This document shows positions 3,289 to 25,394 of a stretch of 64,000 bases of DNA, piece by piece. The stretch comes from Cognatilysobacter tabacisoli (lineage in GTDB: Bacteria > Pseudomonadota > Gammaproteobacteria > Xanthomonadales > Xanthomonadaceae). The notes beneath the pieces were generated by a model. That model was not told the DNA's origin. It made no database searches and worked only from the letters and a program-made list of their open reading frames with translations. The first letter of the stretch is position 1, and each line of letters starts with the position of its first letter. The stretch covers positions 930,001 to 994,000 of the forward strand of contig NZ_QXJI01000001.1 of NCBI RefSeq assembly GCF_003586305.1, given 5' to 3'. The position numbers and the translations under genes are program-made.

Positions 3289-4404
3289 CTAGGCGCCGCC
3301 GGCGGCCGCCGCGTAGACCCTCAGGTAGCGCCCGCTCATGGCCTCGAGCGAGCCCTCGCGCAGCACCCACTCGCGTCCGGCCGAGCCCATCCGCTGCGCG
3401 CGCGCCGGGTCGGCCAGCAGCCGCTCGAGCGTCGCGGCCAGCGCGCCCGGGTCGCCGGCGGCCACGAGGTCGCCGTTGAACCCCTGCCGCACGATCTCGC
3501 GGTTGCCGCCGACGTCGGTGGCGACCACCGGCAACCCGGCGGCGCAGGCCTCGAGCAGGGCGATCGAATAGCCCTCGCTGCGCGACGGCAGCACGAACAC
3601 GTCGAGCCCGGGCAGCAGCCGCTCCACGTCGCCGCGGTCGCCAAGGAAGCGGACCTGCGCGGCGATGCCGAGGTCGCCGGCCAGCTGCTCGAGTTCGCCG
3701 CGCAGCGGCCCGTCGCCTACGATCACCAGGCCCGTGGCCGGAACGCCGGCATGCAGCCGCCGGAACGCGCGGATCAGGCCGGCCTGGTCCTTGACCGGGT
3801 TCAATCGGCCCACCGTGCCGAGCAGCCGGGTGCCCCGGTCAAACCCGAGCTCCTCCACCAGCCGCGCACGGTGCTGCGGCGTCGACGCCTCGAAGCGTTC
3901 GACCCGGATCCCGTTCGGCACGACCTGCACGCCGCGCCGCGGCCCGAGCCCGTGGCGCTGCAGGTGCGATCGCGCCGCCTCGCACACCGCCACGACCGCG
4001 TCGGTGCGGCGCATCGACCAGCGGTACAGCCGCTCGCGGCGGCTGCGCGGGTCCGGCGTGCCCATGCCGTGGCGGGTGTTCACCACGCAAGGCAGCGGCA
4101 GCCCCGCCGACGCGAGCGCGCCGTGGTAGTGCGCGGCGGCGTTGTGGGTGTGCAGCACGCTGTCCGGCTCGGCCTTCAGCAGGGCGCGCAGCCGGCGCAG
4201 CGCGGCGATGTCGAGGCCGTCGCGCTTGCCGCAGGCCTGCACGTCGACGCCGAGCGACTGCAGCTGGCCGGCCAGTGCTCCCGGTTCGAACAGGCAGATC
4301 ACCCGGCACTCGTGCCCGGCCCCGCGCTGCGCCCCGGCCAGGTCGATGACGACGCGCTCCAGCCCGCCGCGCTCGAGGTTCTCGACCAGGTGGGTGATCC
4401 TCAT
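3289..4404 (-). CDS. Glycosyltransferase group 1 (GT4)
   Basis: 371 residues with the GT-B layout. The N-terminal acceptor half starts MRITHLVENLERGGLERVV, and the C-terminal donor half contains VPNGI, GTVGRLNPVKDQ and the EX7E-type region SRSEGYSIALLEACAAG. The GGLE opening and PVKDQ motif resemble sugar transferases associated with EpsH/exosortase glycan loci. The ATG at 4404 overlaps the upstream TGA (ATGA). It is expected to add a sugar to the lipid-linked repeat unit; the donor is unknown. Confidence 0.92.
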   Translation of the reverse strand: MRITHLVENLERGGLERVVIDLAGAQRGAGHECRVICLFEPGALAGQLQSLGVDVQACGKRDGLDIAALRRLRALLKAEPDSVLHTHNAAAHYHGALASAGLPLPCVVNTRHGMGTPDPRSRRERLYRWSMRRTDAVVAVCEAARSHLQRHGLGPRRGVQVVPNGIRVERFEASTPQHRARLVEELGFDRGTRLLGTVGRLNPVKDQAGLIRAFRRLHAGVPATGLVIVGDGPLRGELEQLAGDLGIAAQVRFLGDRGDVERLLPGLDVFVLPSRSEGYSIALLEACAAGLPVVATDVGGNREIVRQGFNGDLVAAGDPGALAATLERLLADPARAQRMGSAGREWVLREGSLEAMSGRYLRVYAAAAGGA

Positions 4405-5747
4405 GCGAGCTCCGAGACGGTGACGCGGTGCTTGCCGGTGGGCGTCAGCGGGATGTCGTCGACGAGCTCGAAGTCCAGCGCCACCGCGTCGCCGACCGAC
4501 TTGGCGAGCTCCCGGCGCAGGTGGTCCTGCACCGACGGATCGTAGTCGGCATCGGGGACCAGCAGCACGTCGAACTTCTCGAGGCTGCGCTGCACCACCT
4601 GGTAGCGCTTGATGCCGGGGGCATTGAGGAACATGTAGACGATGAACTCGCCCGGCACGTAGTGGCCGGCGGCGGTGCGCAGCGCGTCGAGGCGACGCCC
4701 GTCGACGCGCGCGAGCAGCGGCAGGCCGCGTCCGCACGTGCAGCGGTGCGACGACGGAGTCGCCAGGTCGCCGTTGACGTAGCGCAGCAGCGGCATGCCG
4801 TCGTTGTGCAGGTCGCTGACGATGACCTCGCGCGGACCGCCGGCCGGCCCGACCGCTTCACCGAGCTCCACCTTCAGGTGGTCGGCGTTGACGTGCAGGC
4901 CTTCCCGATGCGTGCATTCGGCCGCGACCAGCATGAACTCGCGGCAGCCGTAGGTGTTGTACGCCGGGCAGCCGAACGCGGACTCGATCACCGCGCGCTG
5001 CGGTTCGTGCAGCGCCTCGGCCGCGCTCAGCACCAGCCGGGGCCGGTGCAGCTCTCTCCCGTTGGCGCGTGCCCAGTCGGCTAGCTTCACGATCGGGGCG
5101 ACGTACGACACGATCACCTCGGGCTTGAACGCATTGAGCGCGTCGACGTACTCGCCCATCCGCTCCTCGCTCATCACGAACGCGTTGAGGAACAGGCGGT
5201 TGAAGGCGCCGTGGTACAGCCGGTCCTTCCAGCGCGGTAGCAGCGGCTGCTCGATCGAGGCGCCCCACAGGTACAGGGTGCGCTGGCCGAGCCGCGCGCC
5301 GGCCCAGCCGTAGCCGCGGAACATCGCCGCGATGCGGCGCTCGTAGCTCTCGCGGGTGTAGCCGAACCGCAGCGGCTCGCCGGTCGAGCCGCCGGTGGTC
5401 TTGAACATCAGGCCGGCGCGGTGGGACGGCGCGATCAGCTGCTCGAAGTGGGCGCGCACGTCGCCCTTGGTCAGCAGCGGCAGCCGCGCGTAGTCGGCGG
5501 GCGTGGCGATGTCCTCGGGCGCGGACACGCCGGCCGACCGCCAGCGCTCGCGGTAGTACGGCACCTCGTCCCAGCAGTGGCGGACCATCCGGGTGAGCTT
5601 GCGCCACTGCAGCTGCTCGAGCTGTTCGGCCGGCAGCCACTGGCTTCGCTCGTACTCGCGCAGGTAGCCGAGCGTGCCGCGCCGGCGCAGCCCGCCCTCG
5701 TAGGCCGGGAACAGCACGTGGCGGAACAGCGTTTCGTACGCACTCAT
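4401..5747 (-). CDS. PaaK/CapK-like adenylate-forming enzyme
   Basis: 448 residues. The ATP/AMP motif KTTGGSTGEPLRF lies near residues 115-127, followed by a C-terminal region with NDGMPLLRYVNGD, a CTCGRG cysteine pair and TPTGKHRV near the end, as in phenylacetate-CoA ligase/CapK proteins of capsule loci. Family members activate a carboxylic acid as acyl-AMP. In capsule clusters the substrate is usually unknown, so a role in decorating the glycan is inference. The gene is coupled by ATGA overlaps to the flippase upstream and the GT4 gene downstream. Confidence 0.85.
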   Translation of the reverse strand: MSAYETLFRHVLFPAYEGGLRRRGTLGYLREYERSQWLPAEQLEQLQWRKLTRMVRHCWDEVPYYRERWRSAGVSAPEDIATPADYARLPLLTKGDVRAHFEQLIAPSHRAGLMFKTTGGSTGEPLRFGYTRESYERRIAAMFRGYGWAGARLGQRTLYLWGASIEQPLLPRWKDRLYHGAFNRLFLNAFVMSEERMGEYVDALNAFKPEVIVSYVAPIVKLADWARANGRELHRPRLVLSAAEALHEPQRAVIESAFGCPAYNTYGCREFMLVAAECTHREGLHVNADHLKVELGEAVGPAGGPREVIVSDLHNDGMPLLRYVNGDLATPSSHRCTCGRGLPLLARVDGRRLDALRTAAGHYVPGEFIVYMFLNAPGIKRYQVVQRSLEKFDVLLVPDADYDPSVQDHLRRELAKSVGDAVALDFELVDDIPLTPTGKHRVTVSELA

Positions 5748-8623: not shown

Positions 8624-9718
8624 TCAGCCCGCGTGGTTCGGCAGGCGGCGGCGCGAGCGGTGCATGAACAGCTCCGGCAGCGCGACCACGGCCTCGAACC
8701 ACGCCTGGTCCATGTCGCGTTCGATCGGCAGCCGGCGCAGCGAGAACAGCGTGTCCGGGCCGGGCCGGCTCGTGCCGGCGACGTAGCTGCACGCCATCTC
8801 GTAGCCGGCGGCGCGCGCGGCGGTTTCGACCTCGCGGTTGAACGCGTCGTGGCCACCGACCGGGTACGACACCACCTGCGCCGGCCGCCCGAGCTCGACG
8901 CCGATCCGGCGCCGCGATTCGACCAGCTCCGCCTTCATCAGCGCCGGCGGCAGCTTGGCCAGCATGCGGTGGTTGACCCCGTGCGAGCCGACCTCCATGC
9001 CGTTGTCCTGCATTTCGCGCAGCTGCGCCCACGTCATCGGCCGGCAGTCGGCGTGGCGATGCGGGATCGGCAGCCGCCACTCGCGCGCGAGCCGCGCGAT
9101 GATCCGCGCCTGGCTGCCTTCGTCCAGCCCCTTGAGGCGGTCGAGCACGTTCGCGGCGACGACACGGCGCTTGCCCAGGTCCGGCGGTAGCGCGCACGCG
9201 ATTTGCAGCTCCGGCAGCGACAGCGTGTCGGCCTCGGTCACGCACAGCATGTGCACCAGCCAGTCGTACGAGTACGGCACGCCGCTGTCGATGTGGCCGG
9301 TGGAGACGAAGAACATCGCCGACACGCCGAGGTCGTGCAGGATCGGATACGCCACGCGGTAGTTGTCGTCGTAGCCGTCGTCGAACGTCACCAGCACCGC
9401 GTTCCGGGGCAGGCGGCGGCCGGCGTACAGGCAGGCCAGCACCTCATCGAAGCGCATCGGATGGAAGCGGCGGCGGACCAGCGCCATCTGTTCGCGGAAG
9501 GACTCCGCCCACGCGCTGACCAGTTCGAGGTCGAAGCTGAAGCCCGGCGGCAGCGGCTCGAGCACGCGGTGGTAGGCGAGGATGCGCAGGTCGTCGCGCA
9601 GCATCGCGCGCGCCTGCGCCAGCGGCGGCAGCAAGCCGGCGCGGTGGCTGATACGCGCCAGCGCCTGCCGGCGTCCGCTGCTGGTGTGGATGGTCGTCGC
9701 CGGCGTGTCGTGGCGCAT
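8624..9718 (-). CDS. Polysaccharide deacetylase family protein (CE4)
   Basis: 364 residues. Domain order: an LAYHRV opening, the catalytic TFDDGYDDNY, GSHGVNHRML (metal-binding H-x3-H), and SYPVGGHDAFN near the C terminus. An insertion between motifs 1 and 2 carries a Trp-containing segment (SYDWLVHML), as in exopolysaccharide-locus deacetylases. The start at 9718 is preferred over an ATG 36 bases upstream because it gives the usual short N terminus. It is the first gene of the minus-strand operon; its promoter must lie in 9719-9955, shared with the divergent methyltransferase. Confidence 0.88.
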   Translation of the reverse strand: MRHDTPATTIHTSSGRRQALARISHRAGLLPPLAQARAMLRDDLRILAYHRVLEPLPPGFSFDLELVSAWAESFREQMALVRRRFHPMRFDEVLACLYAGRRLPRNAVLVTFDDGYDDNYRVAYPILHDLGVSAMFFVSTGHIDSGVPYSYDWLVHMLCVTEADTLSLPELQIACALPPDLGKRRVVAANVLDRLKGLDEGSQARIIARLAREWRLPIPHRHADCRPMTWAQLREMQDNGMEVGSHGVNHRMLAKLPPALMKAELVESRRRIGVELGRPAQVVSYPVGGHDAFNREVETAARAAGYEMACSYVAGTSRPGPDTLFSLRRLPIERDMDQAWFEAVVALPELFMHRSRRRLPNHAG

Positions 9719-9955
9719 GGTGTTCCGTATCGAAGGCCCCTGACCCGGACGCACGTCCGGCCCTGCCCGCCACGTCGCGCCTGGCGGGGCATGCGATGTC
9801 GCGGGTCACTGCAATGAACGCGAACGGGCACGGCGACAGGACGCCGAGGCCGGATTGCCGCAGCGACTGCGTTCTCTGCAGCACAGGGCGGTTCGACCGG
9901 GTGCACGCGACGCAGCGGGCGCGACGACGCCCGGCCACCGCCATCTGGGGATCCC

Positions 9956-10567
9956 GTGTTCGAGACATTCGGCCAACAGCTGACCAAGGCACGGCGCCGC
10001 CTGTGGATGAAGTACGCCCTGCGCGGCGTCGGCGGCAGCGACAACCACGCCCGGCTCGACCTCGCGTACAGCGTCGAGGACCCGTGGAACATGGCGTCCG
10101 AACTCGAGCGCGCGCGCTTCGAGGCCACCAACCGGGTGATCGAACGCGCGTTCGGCCGGGTCGGCTCGGTGCTCGAGCTCGGCTGTGGCGAAGGCCACCA
10201 GACCGAGTACCTCGCGCGGCTGAGCGACGCGCAGTACGGCGTCGACGTCAGCCAGCAGGCGGTCGAGCGCGCGCGCCGGCGCTTGCCGGGCGCCCAGTTC
10301 GCCGCGACCGACGTCTTCGGCCAGCCGTGGGGCGACGACGCCGGGCGCTTCGACCTGGTCACCGCGTGCGAGGTCCTCTACTACCTCAGCGATCCGGCGG
10401 CGACGCTCGAGCGCATGCGCCACCTCGGCCGCGCCGGGCTGGTGACGTTCTTTGCCCCGGCCGCACGCCGCGTCGGCCCGCACCTGGACGCGATCCCGGG
10501 CGTGCAGAAGGACTGGATGTGCCACGGCGGCACCGCGTGGCTGGTCGGCTGGTGGCGCAATGGCTGA
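9956..10567 (+). CDS. SAM-dependent methyltransferase, NodS-like
   Basis: 203 residues from a GTG start. The SAM-binding motif I is VLELGCGEGHQTEYL, with an acidic DV after strand 2 and FDLVTACEVLYYL as motif IV/post-I. The phrase YSVEDPWNMAS upstream resembles NodS-type methyltransferases that act on amino sugars. It is the first gene of a plus-strand operon and overlaps the next gene by 8 bases (10560-10567). A role in N- or O-methylating a glycan sugar is inferred from context. Confidence 0.85.
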   Translation: MFETFGQQLTKARRRLWMKYALRGVGGSDNHARLDLAYSVEDPWNMASELERARFEATNRVIERAFGRVGSVLELGCGEGHQTEYLARLSDAQYGVDVSQQAVERARRRLPGAQFAATDVFGQPWGDDAGRFDLVTACEVLYYLSDPAATLERMRHLGRAGLVTFFAPAARRVGPHLDAIPGVQKDWMCHGGTAWLVGWWRNG

Positions 10568-17199: not shown

Positions 17200-19191
17200 G
17201 TGTGTGGAATCGCCGGCTTCACAGGACCCGACGTCGCGCCCGACCGCGCGCGCCCGCTGCTGGAGCGGATGATCCGCACGCTGGCCCACCGCGGCCCGGA
17301 CGGTTACGGCTTCCATACCGAGCCGGGCATCGGCCTGGCCCACGCGCGCCTGTCGATCATCGACCTGGCCACCGGCGACCAGCCGATCCACAACCCGCGC
17401 CGCACCGTGTGGACAGTGTTCAACGGCGAGATCTTCAACTTCGTCGAGCTGCGCGACGCGCTCGAGGCCGACGGCGCCGTGTTCTACACGCGCTCGGACA
17501 CCGAGGTCATCGTCCACCTGTACGACCGCTACGGCGACGCGTTCGTCGAGCACCTCAACGGCCAGTTCGCGATTGCGCTGTGGGACGGCGAGCGCCGCCG
17601 GCTGGTGCTCGCCCGCGACCGCGCCGGCATCCGCCCGCTGTACTTCACCCGCGAGGGCGGCCGCACGTGGTTCGCGTCCGAGGTCAAGGCGCTGCAGGCG
17701 GTCGTGCCGCAGACGGCGACGCTGGACCCGCTCGGCATCGCGCAGACGCTGACCTACTGGGCGCCCGCCGATCCGGACACGGTGTACGCCGGCGTGCGCA
17801 GCCTGCCGCCGGGCTGCGTGATGGCGATCGAGGCCGACGGCCGCGAACACACGCACCGTTACTGGGACTGGGAGTTCCCCGACGCGGCGGACACGTCGCC
17901 CGCGACCTTCCGCAGCGTCGAGCACGCCGCCGCCGAGCTGCGCGAACTGCTGATCGACGCAGTGCGCCTGCAGCTGCGCGCCGACGTGCCGGTCGGCGCG
18001 TACCTCAGCGGCGGATTGGACTCGTCGGGCATCGTCGCGCTGATCCGCGGATTCACTGACACGCCGGTGCGCACGTTCTCGGTCGCGTTCGAGGACGCCG
18101 AGTTCGACGAGAGCGCGCACCAGCAGCAGATGGTGCGGCATCTCGGCACCGAGCACACGACCCTGCACTGCACCGCGCGCGACATCGGCGAGGCGTTTCC
18201 GCGCTTCGTCCGACACGCCGAGGTGCCGGTGCTGCGCACCGCGCCGGTGCCGCTGATGCTGCTGGCCGGCGACGTGCGCCGCGCCGGCTACAAGGTCGTG
18301 CTGACCGGCGAAGGCGCCGACGAGGTGTTCGGCGGCTACGACCTGTTCAAGGAAGCCAAGGTCCGCCGGTTCTGGGCGCGCCAGCCGGATTCGACGTGGC
18401 GCCCGCGCCTGCTCGAACGCCTGTACGGCTACCTCGGCAACTCGCCGGTGCGCAGCCCGGCGTTCGCGCAGTCGTTCTTCGGCCAGGGCCGCGAGTACCT
18501 CGACCGCCCGGTGTTCGCGCACGTGCCGCGCTGGACCACATCGATGCGCGCGCTCGGACTGCTGTCGCCGGACGTCCGTGCGCAGCTGCGCGACTGGAAC
18601 CCGTTCGACGCCTACGAGGCGACGCTGCCGGCCGGGATCATGGGCTGGAGCCCGATCGCGCGCGACCAGTACGTCGAAGCGAAGTCGCTGCTGGCCGGAT
18701 ACCTGCTGGCCGCGCAGGGCGACCGCGTGGCGATGGCCAACTCGATCGAGGGCCGTTTCCCATACCTGGACCACCGCCTGATCGAATTCGCCGCCAAGCT
18801 CCCGCCGAGCTACAAGATCCGCGGCCTCGACGAAAAATACCTGCTCCGCCGCGCGCTCGTCGGCCTGCTGCCGGCCGACATCCTGCAGCGGACCAAGCAG
18901 CCGTACCGCGCGCCGGACAGCCGCAGCTTCTTCGTCGACGGCGCGCCGCTGGACTACGTCGCCGAGCTGATGGGCGCCGACGCGCTGCGCGAGGCCGGCC
19001 TGTTCGACGCCGCCGCGGTCGGCCGACTGTTCGACAAGTGCCGGAGCGGGCGCGCGACCGGCTTCGCCGACAACCAGGCCTTCGTCGGCGTGCTGTCGAC
19101 GATGCTGCTGCACCGCCAACTGCGCGACCGCGCCTCGCCCGCCGACGGCCCTGCCGTCGCGGCCGCGGTGCCGGCGCTGGCCGTCGCCTGA
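17200..19191 (+). CDS. Asparagine synthetase B-like amidotransferase of the glycan locus
   Basis: 663 residues from GTG at 17200, preceded by AGGGAGC. After removal of Met, Cys2 (VCGIAGF) is the Ntn glutaminase nucleophile; AHRGPDGYG and FNGEIFN complete that domain. The synthetase domain has the PP-loop SGGLDSSG near residue 270 and GEGADEVFGGYD. The family transfers glutamine-derived ammonia to an adenylated carboxylate. Homologues in exosortase-type glycan loci are thought to amidate a uronic acid or similar sugar, which fits better here than asparagine biosynthesis, since a second AsnB lies at 50058-52001. The specific substrate is inference. Confidence 0.88.
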   Translation: MCGIAGFTGPDVAPDRARPLLERMIRTLAHRGPDGYGFHTEPGIGLAHARLSIIDLATGDQPIHNPRRTVWTVFNGEIFNFVELRDALEADGAVFYTRSDTEVIVHLYDRYGDAFVEHLNGQFAIALWDGERRRLVLARDRAGIRPLYFTREGGRTWFASEVKALQAVVPQTATLDPLGIAQTLTYWAPADPDTVYAGVRSLPPGCVMAIEADGREHTHRYWDWEFPDAADTSPATFRSVEHAAAELRELLIDAVRLQLRADVPVGAYLSGGLDSSGIVALIRGFTDTPVRTFSVAFEDAEFDESAHQQQMVRHLGTEHTTLHCTARDIGEAFPRFVRHAEVPVLRTAPVPLMLLAGDVRRAGYKVVLTGEGADEVFGGYDLFKEAKVRRFWARQPDSTWRPRLLERLYGYLGNSPVRSPAFAQSFFGQGREYLDRPVFAHVPRWTTSMRALGLLSPDVRAQLRDWNPFDAYEATLPAGIMGWSPIARDQYVEAKSLLAGYLLAAQGDRVAMANSIEGRFPYLDHRLIEFAAKLPPSYKIRGLDEKYLLRRALVGLLPADILQRTKQPYRAPDSRSFFVDGAPLDYVAELMGADALREAGLFDAAAVGRLFDKCRSGRATGFADNQAFVGVLSTMLLHRQLRDRASPADGPAVAAAVPALAVA

Positions 19192-19207: not shown

Positions 19208-20137
19208 ATGCATTGGCAGCTCAAGGGACTGGTGCAGAAAGTGGTCGGCGCGATGCCGGCCGGCGTGACCCTCAACTACTGGCTGCAGCGGCGCTTCGGC
19301 GGGCTGCGCGATTTCCCCGGCGAGTTCGCCAGCAAGGTCGAGGACTGGACCATCATGACCCGGCACCTGCGCGATGCCGGGCGTTCGCTGACCGGTGCGC
19401 GGCTGCTGGAAATCGGCACCGGCTGGTACCCGACGTTTCCGCTGGCCTGCTACCTCGCCGGGGCGCGGCAGGTCAGCACGTTCGACCTCAACCGCCACCT
19501 GAAGCCGGAGCTGACGCGCGCGTGCATCGCGCTGCTCGGCGAGCATCTGCCCACCATCGCCGCCGAAGCGGGCGAGCCGCTGGCCGAGGTCGAGCGCCGC
19601 TACGCCGTCCTGGCCGCACACCCCGATCCGGCCGGCGACCCGACCGGCGCCACCGGCGGCGTCGTCCACTACCGCGCGCCGGCGGACGCCACGCGCACCG
19701 GGCTGCCGGCCGCGAGCGTCGACGTGGTGTTCTCCAACAGCGTGCTCGAGCACGTGCCGCCGGACGTGATCCGCGCGCTGTACGACGAGAGCCGCCGGGT
19801 GCTGTCACCGGGCGGGCTGATGTTCCACTCGGTCAACTGCGGCGACCACTACGCCTACGTCGACCGCCGGATCAACCAGCTCAACTACCTCCGGTACCCC
19901 GACCGCGCCTGGGCGTTCTGGAACAACCGGCTGCTGTACCAGAACCGCCTGCGCGCCCACCGGTTCGTCGACGACGCCGTCGACGCGGGCTTCGACATCG
20001 TGCTGAACACCGCGAATGCGCGGCCCGAGCGCCTGCAGCAGCTGCGCGCGCTGAAGATCGCCCCGCAGTTCGCCGCGATCGCGCCGGAGCAGCTGTGCAT
20101 CACCAGCGTCGACTTCATCGGCCGCGTGCCGGCCTGA
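19208..20137 (+). CDS. Class I SAM-dependent methyltransferase
   Basis: 309 residues. The SAM-binding motif is LLEIGTGWYPTFPL followed by TFDLNRHL, with post-motif VDVVFSNSVLEHVPPDVI and SRRVLSPGGLMFHSVN. The variant ExGTGW in place of ExGxGxG is seen in methyltransferases of polysaccharide loci. It starts 16 bases after the AsnB-like gene and is probably cotranscribed with it. The product methylates an unknown acceptor, plausibly a sugar of the glycan. Confidence 0.85.
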   Translation: MHWQLKGLVQKVVGAMPAGVTLNYWLQRRFGGLRDFPGEFASKVEDWTIMTRHLRDAGRSLTGARLLEIGTGWYPTFPLACYLAGARQVSTFDLNRHLKPELTRACIALLGEHLPTIAAEAGEPLAEVERRYAVLAAHPDPAGDPTGATGGVVHYRAPADATRTGLPAASVDVVFSNSVLEHVPPDVIRALYDESRRVLSPGGLMFHSVNCGDHYAYVDRRINQLNYLRYPDRAWAFWNNRLLYQNRLRAHRFVDDAVDAGFDIVLNTANARPERLQQLRALKIAPQFAAIAPEQLCITSVDFIGRVPA

Positions 20138-20158: not shown

Positions 20159-21406
20159 TCAGCGCGCGGCCGCCTCGTCCCTGGCCGCCTTGTCCGGCGC
20201 CGCCCGGTGAGTCGCCGCCCCATCCACCACGGCCGCGGCCACCGGACCGAGCCGCAGCACCTTGCCGTCGGGCGCATCGGCATCGACCAGCAGGTACAGC
20301 GCGCGGTCCGGGCCCTCGCGCACGTCGCGGATGCGCTGCTTGCGCTCGCCGAGCAGGCGCTCCTCGCCGACGATGCGGTCGCCGTCGAGTTCGAGCCGGA
20401 TCAGCTCGTGCGTGGCCAGCGCGCCGAGGAACAGGTTGCCGCGCCACTGCGGCAGGGCCTCGCCGGTGTAGAACGCCATCCCGCTGAGGCCCGGCGACAC
20501 CGGCCACACGTGGTGCGGTGCCTCCATGCCGTCGGCGCTGGCGCCGACCGAGCCGGGCACCGCCGATCCGCTGTAGTCCTTGCCGTGGGTGATCACCGGC
20601 CAGCCGTAGTTGCGCCCGGCGTCGGGGATGTTCAGCTCGTCGCCGCCCATCGGCCCGTGCTCGCTGGTCCACAGCCGCCGCGTGACCGGGTGCAGCGCTG
20701 CACCCTGCATGTTGCGGTGGCCGTACGACCAGATTTCCGGCCGGGCGTCGTTGCCGACGAACGGGTTGTCGTCGGGCACGCCGCCGTCGGCGCGGATGCG
20801 CACGAGCTTGCCCTGCAGCTTGTCGAGCTGTTGCGCGGTCTCGGCCACGCGGTTGTCGCCCTGCGTCACCCACAGCAGGCCGCCGTCACCGAACACCAGC
20901 CGCGAACCGACGTGCGTGCCGCTCGACAGCTTCGGTTCCTGCCGGTAGATCACCTCCACCGACTCGAGCGCGTCGTCGCCCAGTCGCCCGCGCAGCACCG
21001 CGGTGCCGGCCTTGTTGCCGCGCAGGCTGGGCTCGGCGAACGACAGGTAGACGAGGCCATCGCGGGCGAAGTCGGGCGAAACGGCGACGTCGAGCAGGCC
21101 GGCCTGGCCGTCGACGAAGATCGACGGCAGGCCGCCCAGCGGCGCCGACACCGCGCCGTCGCGGATGCGGCGCAGGCGGCCCGGCCGCTCGGTGACCAGC
21201 ATCGAGCCGTCGGGCAGGAAGGCCAGGCTCCACGGGCGGTCCAGCCCGGTCACGACCTCGGTCAGCGCGACCGCTCCGAGCCGCGTCGCCACCTCCACCG
21301 GTGCCGTCGCGACCACGGTCGGCGCGGCGGCCGGCGCCGGCGGCGGCGCGTGGCGTTCGCAGCCGGCGGCGCATGCCGCGATGAGGATCCAGCCTGCCAG
21401 TCGCAT
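20159..21406 (-). CDS. PQQ-dependent sugar dehydrogenase family lipoprotein (YliI/Asd-like)
   Basis: 415 residues. An N-terminal signal with lipobox-like AACAAGC (Cys at about residue 16) predicts a lipid anchor. The body is a beta-propeller of the soluble aldose sugar dehydrogenase type: GLDRPWSLAFLPDG, ERPGRLRRI, GDGGLLWVTQGDN, SYGHRNMQG, and EHGPMGGDELN with GRNYGWP. Such enzymes oxidise aldoses in the periplasm with PQQ. It is convergent with the methyltransferase gene and divergent from the carrier-protein operon. Whether it acts on the locus glycan or simply lies here is unknown. Confidence 0.88.
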   Translation of the reverse strand: MRLAGWILIAACAAGCERHAPPPAPAAAPTVVATAPVEVATRLGAVALTEVVTGLDRPWSLAFLPDGSMLVTERPGRLRRIRDGAVSAPLGGLPSIFVDGQAGLLDVAVSPDFARDGLVYLSFAEPSLRGNKAGTAVLRGRLGDDALESVEVIYRQEPKLSSGTHVGSRLVFGDGGLLWVTQGDNRVAETAQQLDKLQGKLVRIRADGGVPDDNPFVGNDARPEIWSYGHRNMQGAALHPVTRRLWTSEHGPMGGDELNIPDAGRNYGWPVITHGKDYSGSAVPGSVGASADGMEAPHHVWPVSPGLSGMAFYTGEALPQWRGNLFLGALATHELIRLELDGDRIVGEERLLGERKQRIRDVREGPDRALYLLVDADAPDGKVLRLGPVAAAVVDGAATHRAAPDKAARDEAAAR

Positions 21407-21575: not shown

Positions 21576-21824
21576 ATGGACCAGCGCAAGCAGATCAAGA
21601 GCTACATCCTCACCAACTTCCTGTTCTCGGACGACGACAGCGCCATCGCCGACGGCGATTCGCTGATCCGCAATGGGGTCATCGATTCCACCGGCTTCGC
21701 CGAACTGGTCTTCCATCTCGAGGACGTGTTCGCGTTCTCAGTGACCGACGAGGAAATGATCCCGGCGAACTTCGATTCGATCGATTCGATCGACGCGTTC
21801 GTGGCGCGCAAGCGCGCCGGCTGA
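21576..21824 (+). CDS. Acyl carrier protein
   Basis: 82 residues, acidic and small. GVIDSTGFAELVFHLED contains the phosphopantetheine attachment Ser at about residue 38 (the usual DSL is DST here), followed by the recognition helix. The gene is not the fatty-acid acpP: it has no fab neighbours and opens a four-gene operon with an AMP-ligase, an NadE-like protein and a GNAT-like protein. It most likely carries a dedicated acyl or aminoacyl group loaded by the ligase 9 bases downstream. Confidence 0.9.
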   Translation: MDQRKQIKSYILTNFLFSDDDSAIADGDSLIRNGVIDSTGFAELVFHLEDVFAFSVTDEEMIPANFDSIDSIDAFVARKRAG

Positions 21825-21832
21825 GCGGCGGC

Positions 21833-23332
21833 ATGGCCACCCTGGCCTCCCGGGTTGCGCAGGTCGTCGCCGACGGCGCCGACCGCATCGCGATTGCCGA
21901 CGGCGAACGGCGCTGCAGCTACGGCCAATTCTGGGCGCAGGCGCGCACGCTCGCCGCGCAGTTGCGGTCGGCCGGGCTGACGCCGGGCGACCGGGTCGCG
22001 ATCGTGCTGCCGAACCGGATCGAAGCGGCCACCGCGGTGTACGGCACCTGGCTGGCCGGGGGCGTGGCCGTGCCGCTGAACGCACAGGCGCGCGCACGCG
22101 ACTTCGCCCCGTGGCTGCGGCACTGCGACGCGCGCGTGATCGTTCACGAACACGACAACGTCGACGTCGCCAAGGCGCTGCAGGCCCTCGACGCGCCGCC
22201 GCACGCGATCGCGCTCGAGGCCGACAGCGGCTTCGTCGACCGGCTCGGCGACAGCCACGGCGTGCGCACCCCGGACGACCCGGCCGCCGTCGCGCTGATC
22301 CTCTACACGTCCGGCACCACGGGCGCGCCGAAGGGCGTCACGCTGAGCCACGGCAACCTGCTCGCGAACGCCGAGGCGGTGGTCGGCTACCTCGGTCTCG
22401 GGCCCGACGACAGCGTGCTCGACGTGCTCCCGTTCTACTACGCGTACGGCGCGTCGGTGCTGCACACGCACCTGATGTGCGGCGCGCGCGTCGTGTTGGC
22501 GCCGAGCATGCTGTTCCCACACCTGGTCGTCGACGCGCTGCGGCGCGAACGGGTGACTGGCTTTTCGGCGGTACCGTCGACATTTGCGCTGCTGCTCGAC
22601 CGAGGCCATCTCGACGCGCTCAAGGCACCGGCGCTGCGCTACCTGACCCAAGCCGGCGGCGCGATGAGCCCGGCGCTGACCCGTCGCGTGCGCGACGCCC
22701 TGCCCGGGCCGCGGCTGTTCGTGATGTACGGGCAGACCGAAGCCACGTCGCGGCTGACCTACCTGTCGCCCGAGCGGCTCGACGACAAGCCGGGCTCGGT
22801 GGGGCGGGCGCTCACCGGCGTCGAGATCGCGGTGCTGCGCGAAGACGGACGACCCGCTTCGATCGACGAAGAAGGCGAAGTCTGCGCGCGCGGGCCCAAC
22901 GTCATGCTCGGCTACTGGCACAGCCCCGACGCGACCGCCGCCGCGCTGCGCGACGGCTGGCTGCACACCGGCGACCTTGGCCGGCTCGACGCCGACGGCG
23001 ACCTGTTCTTGGCCGGCCGGCGCAGCGACATGATCAAGACCGGCGCGCACCGGGTGAACCCGGCCGACGTCGAGGAAGCCATCGCCGAGCTGCCGTGGGT
23101 GATCGAGGCGGCCGTCGTCGGCATCGACGACGCGGTCCTCGGCCAGGTCATCATGGCGTGCGTCGTGGTCAGCGACCTGCCCGACCGCGCCGACGATCGC
23201 ATCCGCGCGCACTGCCGCGCCCAGCTGGCGCCGTACAAGGTGCCCAAGTTCGTCCAGTTCATCGATGCCCTGCCGCGCACCGCGTCCGGCAAGGTTCGCC
23301 GCATCCAGTTGACGGAAACCCAACTCCCATGA
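21833..23332 (+). CDS. AMP-dependent acyl-CoA/acyl-ACP ligase
   Basis: 499 residues, full length for the adenylate-forming family. Core motif A3 is LILYTSGTTGAPKGVTLSH at about 156-174; VMYGQTEAT is A5, HTGDLGRLD is A7, and the C-terminal TASGKVRR carries the catalytic Lys. It should activate a carboxylic acid as the adenylate and pass it to CoA or, given the adjacent carrier protein, to phosphopantetheine. It resembles ligases associated with exosortase A loci. The stop overlaps the next start (ATGA). Confidence 0.9.
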   Translation: MATLASRVAQVVADGADRIAIADGERRCSYGQFWAQARTLAAQLRSAGLTPGDRVAIVLPNRIEAATAVYGTWLAGGVAVPLNAQARARDFAPWLRHCDARVIVHEHDNVDVAKALQALDAPPHAIALEADSGFVDRLGDSHGVRTPDDPAAVALILYTSGTTGAPKGVTLSHGNLLANAEAVVGYLGLGPDDSVLDVLPFYYAYGASVLHTHLMCGARVVLAPSMLFPHLVVDALRRERVTGFSAVPSTFALLLDRGHLDALKAPALRYLTQAGGAMSPALTRRVRDALPGPRLFVMYGQTEATSRLTYLSPERLDDKPGSVGRALTGVEIAVLREDGRPASIDEEGEVCARGPNVMLGYWHSPDATAAALRDGWLHTGDLGRLDADGDLFLAGRRSDMIKTGAHRVNPADVEEAIAELPWVIEAAVVGIDDAVLGQVIMACVVVSDLPDRADDRIRAHCRAQLAPYKVPKFVQFIDALPRTASGKVRRIQLTETQLP

Positions 23333-24339
23333 GCGCCGTTCCCATGCCCCCGTCCCGCCCGTTCGACCGCACCGTCCTCGACCTCGACTACGCCGCCGCG
23401 GCCGACCGCATCTGCGAGCGCCTGCGCGAGATCACCGCGCGCCAGCTGCACCGTCGCGGGCTTGTGGTGGCGATTTCCGGCGGCATCGACAGCTCGGTCA
23501 GCTGCGCGCTGGCCGTGCGCGCGCTCGGGCCCGAGAGGGTGTTCACCCTGATCCTGCCTGAGCGCGACTCATCCGATGACAGCGCCCAGCGGGCGCACAT
23601 CCTCGCCGAGCACCTCGGCGTGCGCACCGAGACCGTCGACATCGCGCCGGCGCTGGAGGCGATCGGCTGCTACCGCGCGCGCGACGCCGCGGTGCGCGCG
23701 ACCCTGCCCGAGTACGGCGACGGCTGGCGGTTCAAGATCGTCATCGACGGCGGGCTCGAGGGGCGCTTCAACCGGTTCAAGCTCGTCGCCGAGGACCCGT
23801 CCGGCGAGACGGTCGTGCGCAACCTCGGCCTCAACGAGTACCTGACCATCGTCGCGGCGACCAACTTCAAGCAGCGCCTGCGCAAGACGCTCGAGTACTT
23901 CCACGCCGACCGGCTGAACTATGCCGTGGTCGGCACGCCGAACCGGCTCGAGTACGACCAGGGGTTTTTCGTCAAGAACGGCGACGGCTCGGCCGACGTC
24001 AAGCCGATTGCGCACCTGTACAAGTCGCAGGTCTACGGCATGGCGCGGTTCCTCGGCCTGCCCGCGCGCGTGTGCGACGCCACGCCGACCACCGACACCT
24101 ACAGCCTCAGCCAGGGCCAGGACGAGTTCTACTTCGCCCTGCCGTACGCGCAGATGGACCTGGCGCTGTGGGCGCTGAACCACGACGTGCCGGCCGCGGA
24201 GCTGGCGCGCGAGCTCGGCATCACCGAGTCGCAGGCGCAGGGCGTCTACGACGACATCGCGAACAAACGCCGCACGACGCGCTACCTGCACGCCGCGCCG
24301 GTGCTGGTCGAGCCGGTGACGGAGCTCGCGCACGCATGA
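23329..24339 (+). CDS. NAD synthetase-like (NadE-like) PP-loop amide ligase
   Basis: 336 residues without a glutaminase/nitrilase domain, so it would use free ammonia or ammonia from another source. The PP-loop is SGGIDSS at 50-56; GTPNRLEYDQGFF at about 202-214 and KNGDGSADVKPI match the NadE GTxNxxE and GDG..D..PI motifs. Between these blocks (about 118-172) there is extra sequence that I do not recognise from classical NadE. The gene is locked by ATGA overlaps between the ACP ligase and the GNAT-like gene, so it may amidate an activated acid other than deamido-NAD. True NAD synthesis remains possible. Confidence 0.8.
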   Translation: MSAVPMPPSRPFDRTVLDLDYAAAADRICERLREITARQLHRRGLVVAISGGIDSSVSCALAVRALGPERVFTLILPERDSSDDSAQRAHILAEHLGVRTETVDIAPALEAIGCYRARDAAVRATLPEYGDGWRFKIVIDGGLEGRFNRFKLVAEDPSGETVVRNLGLNEYLTIVAATNFKQRLRKTLEYFHADRLNYAVVGTPNRLEYDQGFFVKNGDGSADVKPIAHLYKSQVYGMARFLGLPARVCDATPTTDTYSLSQGQDEFYFALPYAQMDLALWALNHDVPAAELARELGITESQAQGVYDDIANKRRTTRYLHAAPVLVEPVTELAHA

Positions 24340-25394
24340 ACGCGGCGGCCCCGCCGCCCACCTACTCGATCCACGAGGGCAACGCCCTGCTGGACCGCAG
24401 TTCGGTGCTGGCGATCTGGGACGGCAGCCTCGGCCAGGCCGAGCGCATGCGCGCCAAGTACGACTGGTTCTACCTGCACGCGCCCGGCGGCCCGCCGCTG
24501 ATGCAGCTGCTGCGCCACGAGCCCGACGAGAGTTGGGTTGGCACCTGCGCGGCCGGCCGGCGCCGCATGCTCTGGCGCGGACGCGAGATCCAGGCGGGCG
24601 TGCTCGTCGACCTCGCCGTCAGCGCCGCGCACCGCTCGCTCGGACCGGCGCTGATGCTGCAGCAGCGCCTGATCGCCGCGGCCCGGAGCGAACTCGACGT
24701 GCTGTACGGGTTCCCCAACCCGAAGGCCGCGCCGGTGTTCAAGCGCATCGGCTACCGCCCGTTCGGCGACCTGGTCCGCTTCGCCCGCGTGCTGCGGCAC
24801 CGCCGCTACCTCGAGCTGCGCCTGCCCCCATGGCTGGCGGCTCCTGCCGGCGCGTTGCTCGATGCCGCGTTCGCGCTGCGCGACGGCGTGCGACGCTGGA
24901 CCGGTCCGGCGCTGCGGTCGCGCTGGAGCGCAGAGGCCGATCCGCGCATGGACACGCTGTGGAACGCCTCCGCGCCCGAGGACGCGCTGACCGCGGTGCG
25001 CGACGCGCGCCACGTGCGCTGGCGCTTCGACCACGCGCCGATCGCGACCACCCGACACCTGCTCGTGACCGACCGCGACGACCGCCACCTGCTGGCCTGG
25101 TTCGCGACGCAGGTCGAAGGCGACGCGCTGCTGGTCCGCGACTTCTGGTCCGAGGACGCCTCCGCTGCGGTCGGCATGCACTACGTCGACGCGCTGCTGC
25201 AGGCCGCGCGCAAGGCCGGCCACGCCTCGGTGTCTGTCGAGATCGCCGCGCGCGAGTCGCGCCTGGCCACGTGGCGCGCCCGCGGCTTCGTCCTGCGCAG
25301 CCGTCGCACCGTGTTCGGCATGCAGCGCGACGAGGCGGACCACCCGATTGCCCACGACGACCTCTACCTGACCGCCGCCGACGAAGACGAGTAG
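24336..25394 (+). CDS. GNAT-like N-acyltransferase of the ACP cassette
   Basis: 352 residues. The N-terminal half resembles a GNAT fold: VLVDLAVSAAHRSLGPALMLQQRLI (acyl-CoA-binding R/QxxGx-like loop) and YGFPNPKAAPVFKRIGYRP. The C-terminal half looks like a second, weaker GNAT repeat (LLVTDRDDRHLLAWFATQ and VSVEIAARESRLATWRARGF), so a two-domain arrangement as in some FemAB/GNAT relatives is possible. The start overlaps the NadE-like stop (ATGA). Transfer of the carrier-bound acyl group to an amino sugar is a reasonable inference. Confidence 0.7.
   Translation: MNAAAPPPTYSIHEGNALLDRSSVLAIWDGSLGQAERMRAKYDWFYLHAPGGPPLMQLLRHEPDESWVGTCAAGRRRMLWRGREIQAGVLVDLAVSAAHRSLGPALMLQQRLIAAARSELDVLYGFPNPKAAPVFKRIGYRPFGDLVRFARVLRHRRYLELRLPPWLAAPAGALLDAAFALRDGVRRWTGPALRSRWSAEADPRMDTLWNASAPEDALTAVRDARHVRWRFDHAPIATTRHLLVTDRDDRHLLAWFATQVEGDALLVRDFWSEDASAAVGMHYVDALLQAARKAGHASVSVEIAARESRLATWRARGFVLRSRRTVFGMQRDEADHPIAHDDLYLTAADEDE

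Follow-up and report, generated by a model that had tools for sequence, protein, structure and literature searches.

A NadE-like family encoded with a dedicated acyl carrier protein in a possible polysaccharide-decorating cassette

Introduction

In DltA-DltC D-alanylation, a stand-alone adenylating enzyme and a dedicated carrier protein feed an envelope polymer. The acyl module of XrtA/PEP-CTERM exopolysaccharide (EPS) loci, as we take it, comprises a TIGR03098 ligase, an acyl carrier protein (ACP), a TIGR03099 PLP decarboxylase, TIGR03100/03101 hydrolases and a TIGR03108 amidotransferase. WbpS-type uronamide-forming amidotransferases are described for the P. aeruginosa O-antigen, and a homologue in R. 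gelatinosus influences growth mode and colony form (excerpted text of PMC3684757).

Here we analyse a cassette found in a 64,000-nucleotide stretch of the Cognatilysobacter tabacisoli genome (hereafter the window), which encodes a dedicated ACP, an AMP-forming acyl ligase, a NadE-like PP-loop enzyme and a GNAT-fold protein. As in DltA-DltC, a separate adenylating enzyme comes with its own carrier protein and an envelope polymer is the presumed destination; the cassette adds amide-forming enzymes. Like WbpS, the cassette AsnB is a glutamine amidotransferase of the AsnB-like type encoded in a glycan locus, whereas the excerpted text of PMC3684757 names no NadE-like, ACP or ligase partner for WbpS.

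We did not find a description of the gene set in the open-licence literature, subscription papers and preprints being outside the scope of the search. The available text of two papers on floc formation (PMC9850573, PMC4784049) contains neither NAD nor acyl carrier terms. S. meliloti asnO was considered as the cassette asnB and rejected, AsnO being placed in N-acetylglutaminylglutamine synthesis in the excerpted text of PMC7078487.

Results

Organization of the cassette

The genes for the ACP (21576..21824, + strand; 82 aa) and the ligase (21833..23332, +; 499 aa) are followed by those for the NadE-like enzyme (23329..24339, +; 336 aa) and the GNAT-fold protein (24336..25394, +; 352 aa). The two ATGA overlaps given in the preliminary description, at 23329 between ligase and NadE-like genes and at 24336 between NadE-like and GNAT-like genes, are exact; its ACP-ligase gap of 9 bases measures 8 (21825-21832). 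The AsnB-like glutamine amidotransferase, a conserved cassette partner with a GTG start, is encoded 2.4 kb upstream (17200..19191, +). It is adjoined by a SAM-dependent methyltransferase (19208..20137, +), which may be a lineage-specific partner and occurs in 9 of the 64 full-flank loci when the window is counted.

Ser38 of the ACP lies in a DSTG motif, and D37, S38 and G40 are invariant in an alignment of 14 ACP sequences; this phosphopantetheine serine in a DS motif marks the protein as an acyl carrier protein. It has no Pfam match at E 0.01, and its best NCBIfam matches, NF052616 and NF058660 (ACP models only), are both under cut-off. The ligase matches PF00501 and PF13193. In the PDB its closest relative is an oxalate-CoA ligase; an NRPS subunit and a malonyl-CoA synthetase, among others, come next. 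We rejected reading the ligase's acid off these relatives, which do not settle the choice.

The GNAT-like protein gives two weak Pfam matches only, both below cut-off, and no NCBIfam match; it is assigned mainly because its AlphaFold model (pLDDT 93.9) matches GNAT-fold transferases. N-myristoyltransferases and the acetyltransferases 3n7z, 2hv2 and 2i00, all of which presumably hold two GNAT domains, align with the model over roughly its full length. Judging from the model, the protein, which carries an R100-x-x-G103-x-A105 motif, is probably a tandem GNAT with two folds per chain.

Conservation of the gene set

Partners near NadE were counted in 62 full-flank loci (6.5 kb on both sides), leaving out the window and one duplicate contig. 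The ACP was present in all 62, AsnB in 57, the ligase in 54 and GNAT in 27. Without the close kin L055-L071 the counts were 49/49, 45/49, 41/49 and 14/49, respectively, and in a class sample chosen independently of the window, with 16 intact loci that exceed the family cut-off, they were 16, 14, 13 and 1. Where no ligase is nearby (8/62), the ACP remains beside NadE. Gene-order counts cover 96 loci, with the window left out because the gene caller dropped its NadE; tblastn counts are independent of the gene caller. An HMM-based neighbourhood count was left unused, as its overlap filter lost NadE in L059, L068, L071, L112 and L117, and the ACP in L173.

The gene grouping exceeds chance, as the block is found again in other classes and phyla. 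The conserved core is AsnB-ACP-ligase-NadE, and GNAT is a frequent, not universal, cassette partner. The four genes of the preliminary description, namely ACP, ligase, NadE-like and GNAT-like, are conserved together elsewhere, as its reading required, but its list missed AsnB and included GNAT, and over half of the loci have no GNAT homologue nearby. This absence, and that of the ligase near 8 of the 62, counts against the pathway proposed below. Some alphaproteobacterial records have a different family nearby, one that similarity links to GNAT.

The asnB-ACP-ligase-nadE block is carried on plasmids of Sinorhizobium, Mesorhizobium and Shinella, with the S. meliloti four-gene block on pSymB. 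The four genes are consecutive, as annotated, in S. medicae, M. ciceri, S. meliloti, Shinella and Roseateles, and the order in Azospirillum is ACP-ligase-AsnB-NadE-GNAT.

The NadE-like enzyme compared with NAD synthetases

The NadE-like protein matches PF02540 and exceeds the cut-off of its family model NF002048 (PRK00876; 475.6 vs 313 bits), which one of 14 control genomes also passes. The model carries the NCBI name 'NAD(+) synthase', and that the window's sequence still passes it is an observation counting against the pathway. NAD synthetases, enzymes that amidate using ammonia, give the top structural matches (Z 28.0 to 2e18). The protein has the PP-loop fold with SGGxDS and the catalytic ATP positions of NadE; positions in common with presumed canonical NadE are SGGxDS, R183, R185, G202-T203, E208, K216, GDG, D223, K232 and D265-E266.

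Fold, P-loop and most ATP and catalytic positions are those of NH3-dependent NadE, whereas the cassette enzyme differs in its linkage to an ACP, in about 50 extra residues (family-specific stretch at about residues 114-171) and in a loop where the canonical residues G-L-W become D-T-Y. A C-terminal His-Lys pair, which we take to be a deamido-NAD contact of NAD synthetases, is present in 8/8 presumed canonical NadE compared and is not seen in the NadE-like family, where the alignment is loose and the commonest residues at positions 318-319 are R (0.45) and Y (0.86). The family seems to have dropped the pair, as far as the loose alignment indicates, and its own K313, R314 and (nearly conserved) H321, near the same site, could replace it.

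The preliminary description had considered that the NadE-like gene might be the only NAD synthetase of its genome; this was not seen, as the window genome encodes a separate glutamine-dependent NAD synthetase (G000:C2:825243-826868). A glutamine-dependent NadE match was found in 17/17 carriers tested, over cut-off in 16 and below it in one; one of the 17 has an internal stop.

The neighbours of NadE also bear on its product. Of 97 loci, 17 encode a PrmC-like methyltransferase at NadE; the protein has an NPPY motif in 14 of these 17, and all 11 tested genomes with a cassette copy have a second PrmC-family match over cut-off elsewhere. Its position beside NadE hints at a carboxamide product. The window genome has no cassette PrmC, which counts against the pathway.

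An unlikely alternative is that the NadE-like protein uses an amine (an amino sugar or an amino acid, for example) in place of ammonia and couples it to a carrier-bound acid, the GNAT then doing a separate acylation. The switched positions and loop and the large added stretch are consistent with such coupling, as is the absence of GNAT near many loci, which means that another enzyme may do the transfer. Nevertheless, the PrmC-like enzyme better suits a primary carboxamide, and the closest structures are those of NAD synthetases, a family of ammonia users.

Glycan context and relation to the XrtA module

Recurrent non-core neighbours include glycosyltransferases, deacetylases and XrtA-type EPS genes, the last being found beside some cassettes. 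An exosortase was found in 11/17 carriers compared to 10/37 comparison genomes (p=0.015). The comparison genomes are handles at steps of ten and include four TIGR03099 carriers (G213, G223, G303 and G323), all with an exosortase; without these four, p=0.0017. No exosortase was found in the window genome at 1e-8, which again counts against the pathway.

The likeness to the XrtA module extends to single genes: TIGR03098 is the best NCBIfam match of the cassette ligase and TIGR03108 the second of AsnB, relatives of hydr2 and hydr1 come after the typed cassette L041, and XrtA deacetylase, tyrosine kinase and FemAB genes are found beside other cassettes. Yet both proteins are under the XrtA cut-offs in L041 and in the window (ligase, 377.7 vs 592.35 bits; AsnB, 443.3 vs 816.9 bits), and the cassette adds the NadE-like enzyme and is without the PLP decarboxylase. 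No NadE-like match was found in the 20 TIGR03099 loci examined (of 36), and TIGR03099 has no match in the window genome at 1e-60. Only 1/17 carriers, G301, has TIGR03099 over cut-off, about 39 kb from the cassette. We dropped the idea that the NadE-like gene and the PLP decarboxylase exclude each other: of 369 genomes, 17 are over cut-off for the former and 36 for the latter, and the overlap of 1 against about 1.7 expected by chance allows no such claim.

The block of S. meliloti, like that of S. medicae, adjoins minCDE and a sugar ABC transporter, outside a glycan cluster, and this placement counts against the pathway. It is among the points for a further alternative, that the product of the module is a small metabolite, diffusible or lipid-linked, and that some lineages place the module in EPS loci by habit. 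The nearest models of the ACP, carriers of the ornithine-lipid and cispentacin pathways (below cut-off), and a KAS III-like gene in 6 loci point the same way. We consider this reading improbable, given the glycan-related recurrent neighbours and the genes about 10 kb from the S. medicae block, which encode a GNAT, a methyltransferase, a lipopolysaccharide biosynthesis protein and a GumC-family member.

Discussion

We propose, with a probability of roughly 40%, that the cassette produces an acyl group which is bound to the carrier, contains an amide and is attached to a surface polysaccharide precursor. The AMP-ligase would adenylate a carboxylic acid and load it onto the ACP phosphopantetheine, as its family and adjacency suggest. 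The NadE-like enzyme, linked to the ACP and with its ATP positions kept, would then adenylate a free carboxylate on the acyl group held by the ACP, converting this carboxylate to a carboxamide. In some lineages the adjacent PrmC/HemK-like enzyme may N-methylate this carboxamide, and the GNAT-fold protein would transfer the acyl group from the ACP to an amino sugar. AsnB may supply ammonia, or it may amidate another glycan carboxylate in the way that WbpS acts on uronic acids. The carrier-bound, perhaps amidated acyl decoration of the preliminary description fits the EPS genes, AsnB and the PrmC-like neighbours, with the correction that its core lacked AsnB.

That the NadE-like protein is instead a genuine second NH3-dependent NAD synthetase, as a chance passenger or local NAD supply, is the least probable reading: the NF002048 score over cut-off, a cut-off that one control genome also passes, the fold match and the retained catalytic positions favour it, but the invariable ACP, the glutamine-dependent NadE of the carriers, the unseen His-Lys pair and the switched loop do not.

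Still more tentatively than the decoration pathway itself, we suggest that NF002048 is mainly an amide synthetase for ACP-bound acids. It would belong to a mobile module, with AsnB, the ligase, a GNAT-fold transferase and, in some cases, a PrmC-like enzyme that methylates the amide, and this module decorates polysaccharides with (N-methyl-)carboxamide acyl groups, in root-nodule symbionts included.

If the decoration pathway is true, a family annotated in many species as a central NAD enzyme would be misnamed, and the NAD synthetase fold would have a carrier-protein-dependent use that is apparently undescribed. XrtA-type exopolysaccharides matter in flocs and biofilms, and glycan chemists would have a definite modification to seek in them. 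A route to amidated acyl groups on envelope polysaccharides could also be tested in tractable hosts, Sinorhizobium meliloti among them.

Gene arrangement and NAD synthetase redundancy

The four cassette genes lie on the forward strand and encode an ACP (21576-21824), an AMP-ligase (21833-23332), a NadE-like protein (23329-24339) and a GNAT-like protein (24336-25394). Both ATGA overlaps reported in the preliminary description are exact, and the ACP-ligase gap, given there as 9 bases, is corrected to 8. Upstream of the ACP are genes for an AsnB-like amidotransferase (17200-19191, GTG start) and a SAM-dependent methyltransferase (19208-20137). All that separates this pair from the ACP in the window is a single opposite-strand gene (20159-21406) of the glucose/sorbosone dehydrogenase family (PF07995). 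A gene-called family whose proteins have about 404 residues, possibly the counterpart of this gene, is present in 15 of 96 loci, all from close kin, usually three genes 5′ of NadE. The same polysaccharide region also holds a further adenylating-type enzyme (4401-5747, reverse strand), nearest to PaaK-like CoA ligases, with every match below cut-off.

The preliminary description would have given up its acyl-decoration pathway had the NadE-like gene been the sole NAD synthetase; a glutamine-dependent NAD synthetase is in fact encoded elsewhere in the genome. Such a match occurs in all 17 carriers, the genomes whose NadE-like protein passes the cut-off of the NCBIfam model NF002048, and exceeds the curated cut-off in 16. 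The match in genome G072 (213 bits) is below it, and that in G301 contains one stop.

Conservation of the cassette

In a class sample of 369 genomes drawn without regard to the window, 17, including its own genome, pass the cut-off of NF002048, the model matched by the window protein, as does 1 of 14 control genomes. The 16 sample loci besides the window have near NadE an ACP (16/16), AsnB (14/16) and ligase (13/16); a homologue of the window GNAT is found in 1/16. One of the two loci without AsnB (L045) stops at a contig end. We left out locus L054 (genome G137), whose truncated NadE-like copy (9510-10025) contains a stop and scores below cut-off; no partner genes were detected beside it.

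A one-genome-per-species scan returned at least 589 stretches, at least 562 of them encoding a relative. We kept the best 80 loci among these relatives, a choice that weights the set towards close kin (Pseudoxanthomonas and Luteimonas, for example); Myxococcota- and Chloroflexi-named MAG records also occur among those 80. With the sample and the window this gave 97 loci, two contigs being represented twice (L084/L043 and L085/L039). Flanks of 6.5 kb on either side of NadE are present in 64 of the 97, or 62 after removal of the window and a duplicate. These 62 contain ACP in 62, AsnB in 57, ligase in 54 and GNAT in 27; with the close kin L055-L071 also removed, the counts in 49 loci are 49, 45, 41 and 14.

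ACP (88), ligase (83), AsnB (77) and GNAT (39) are likewise the commonest families near NadE in the 96 gene-called loci, a set that excludes the window, followed by a deacetylase (22), glycosyltransferases (20 and 18), a second deacetylase (17) and a PrmC-like family (16). Immediately 5′ of NadE lies the ligase in 62 loci and the ACP in 15; AsnB occupies this place once and other genes 18 times. GNAT lies directly 3′ in 32/96, with a stop/start overlap in 16 of these 32.

Five loci (L083, L087, L096, L101, L111) have no ligase inside 6.5 kb, and a PrmC-like gene separates ACP from NadE; L083 carries a further ligase-ACP pair some 7 kb off. A KAS III-like (beta-ketoacyl-ACP synthase III-like) gene occurs with the cassette in six loci (L109, L118, L107, L093, L108, L119), five named as Burkholderiales or genera thereof and one as Pseudoxanthomonas; the sole one typed, from L109, is below cut-off. 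A small protein of L120 (3394-3825) resembles methylmalonyl-CoA epimerase, below cut-off; its family is near NadE in five loci and directly 3′ in three.

Plasmid copies

Searched against 72,556 plasmid records, the window NadE-like protein matched 116, every one below 60% identity (Sinorhizobium 76, Azospirillum 12, Ensifer 9, Shinella 8, Mesorhizobium 7 and four others). The four-gene stretch of S. medicae matched 97 plasmid records, S. meliloti included, 88 of them across at least 80% of its length. Eight regions were taken, and in all five that are annotated asnB, acyl carrier protein, AMP-ligase and nadE are consecutive.

In Shinella and Roseateles a 358-369-residue protein lies 5′ of asnB, with 41-44% identity to a GNAT-annotated S. 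medicae protein and to S. meliloti and Mesorhizobium proteins. Pfam scores for this group are weak or absent, and scores against the A4 profile are low, just eight sequences receiving an E-value. The group is therefore called GNAT on the strength of its resemblance to the annotated S. medicae protein. In Mesorhizobium a protein of this group is encoded directly 3′ of nadE and forms a pair with a HemK/PrmC family gene; S. medicae has a comparable pair about 10 kb from the block. In Azospirillum brasilense the order is ACP-ligase-AsnB-NadE, with a GNAT scoring 87 bits against the window's family. The complete four-gene block of S. meliloti pSymB (locus L172, 12001-16807) lies beside minCDE; no functional study of it was found in the open-licence literature searched.

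Substrate side of the NadE-like enzyme

The predicted NadE-like model (58 sequences; pLDDT 91.7, pTM 0.90) has the NAD synthetase fold (2e18_A, Z 28.0, 251 residues, rmsd 3.4). ATP and catalytic positions are shared with eight presumed canonical NadE proteins, and the substrate side is changed relative to them: M186K, L189E, T215V, loop residues G-L-W to D-T-Y, and about 50 extra residues between residues 114 and 171. The canonical H-K at 318-319 is not seen in the NadE-like family. This loss is possibly just apparent, since the family conserves K313, R314 and nearly H321. The GNAT-like model (pLDDT 93.9) matches N-myristoyltransferases by E-value, and acetyltransferases (among them 3n7z, 2hv2 and 2i00) with TM up to 0.64.

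A PrmC-like partner

A PrmC/HemK family gene accompanies NadE in 17 of 97 loci, 15 times 5′ and twice 3′, and is absent from the cassette in the window's genome. In L103 the PrmC-like gene and NadE are separated by a ligase fragment call. The NPPY motif is present in 14/17, and the two members typed with NCBIfam (L042, L087) pass the HemK family cut-off and narrowly miss PrmC proper. The cassette gene is thus an extra copy: each of the 11 genomes tested among those that have it shows a further PrmC-family match, at another site, that exceeds the cut-off. The substrate of PrmC proper is the side-chain amide of glutamine, which it methylates, and for this reason we read the cassette product as a putative carboxamide.

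Polysaccharide setting

Neighbouring deacetylase, tyrosine kinase and FemAB families (17, 11 and 9 of 96 loci) each have one typed member over its XrtA cut-off: TIGR03006 (L085), TIGR03018 (L038; 231.3 against 230.65) and TIGR03019 (L100). An outer-membrane neighbour scores below the TIGR03016 cut-off. Exosortase PF09721 is present in 11/17 carriers compared to 10/37 comparison genomes (p = 0.015), in five carriers about 11-15 kb from the cassette on the same contig; it was not found in the window's genome.

The known XrtA acyl module pairs a TIGR03098 ligase with a PLP decarboxylase. Among 20 PLP decarboxylase loci examined (36 over cut-off), a ligase relative turned up at 16 and a NadE-like match at none. 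The two modules show no statistical mutual exclusion. One study (PMC3684757) reports altered growth mode and colony form when an AsnB-like WbpS homologue is mutated; the gene belongs to an EPS locus that also carries PEP-CTERM-type genes.

Proposed pathway

The observations themselves are this frequent EPS setting, co-location of the genes, an invariant carrier serine, kept ATP positions with a changed substrate side, and NadE redundancy. The chief fact against polysaccharide as final acceptor is that the S. meliloti copy lies outside any glycan cluster. Our main reading rests on the ACP linkage; neither the exosortase association nor the His-Lys comparison carried it. The ACP would be loaded with an acyl group, the acid would be amidated while on the carrier, and the resulting amide may be methylated. 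The GNAT-like enzyme would then transfer the acyl group, with surface polysaccharide as the putative final acceptor.
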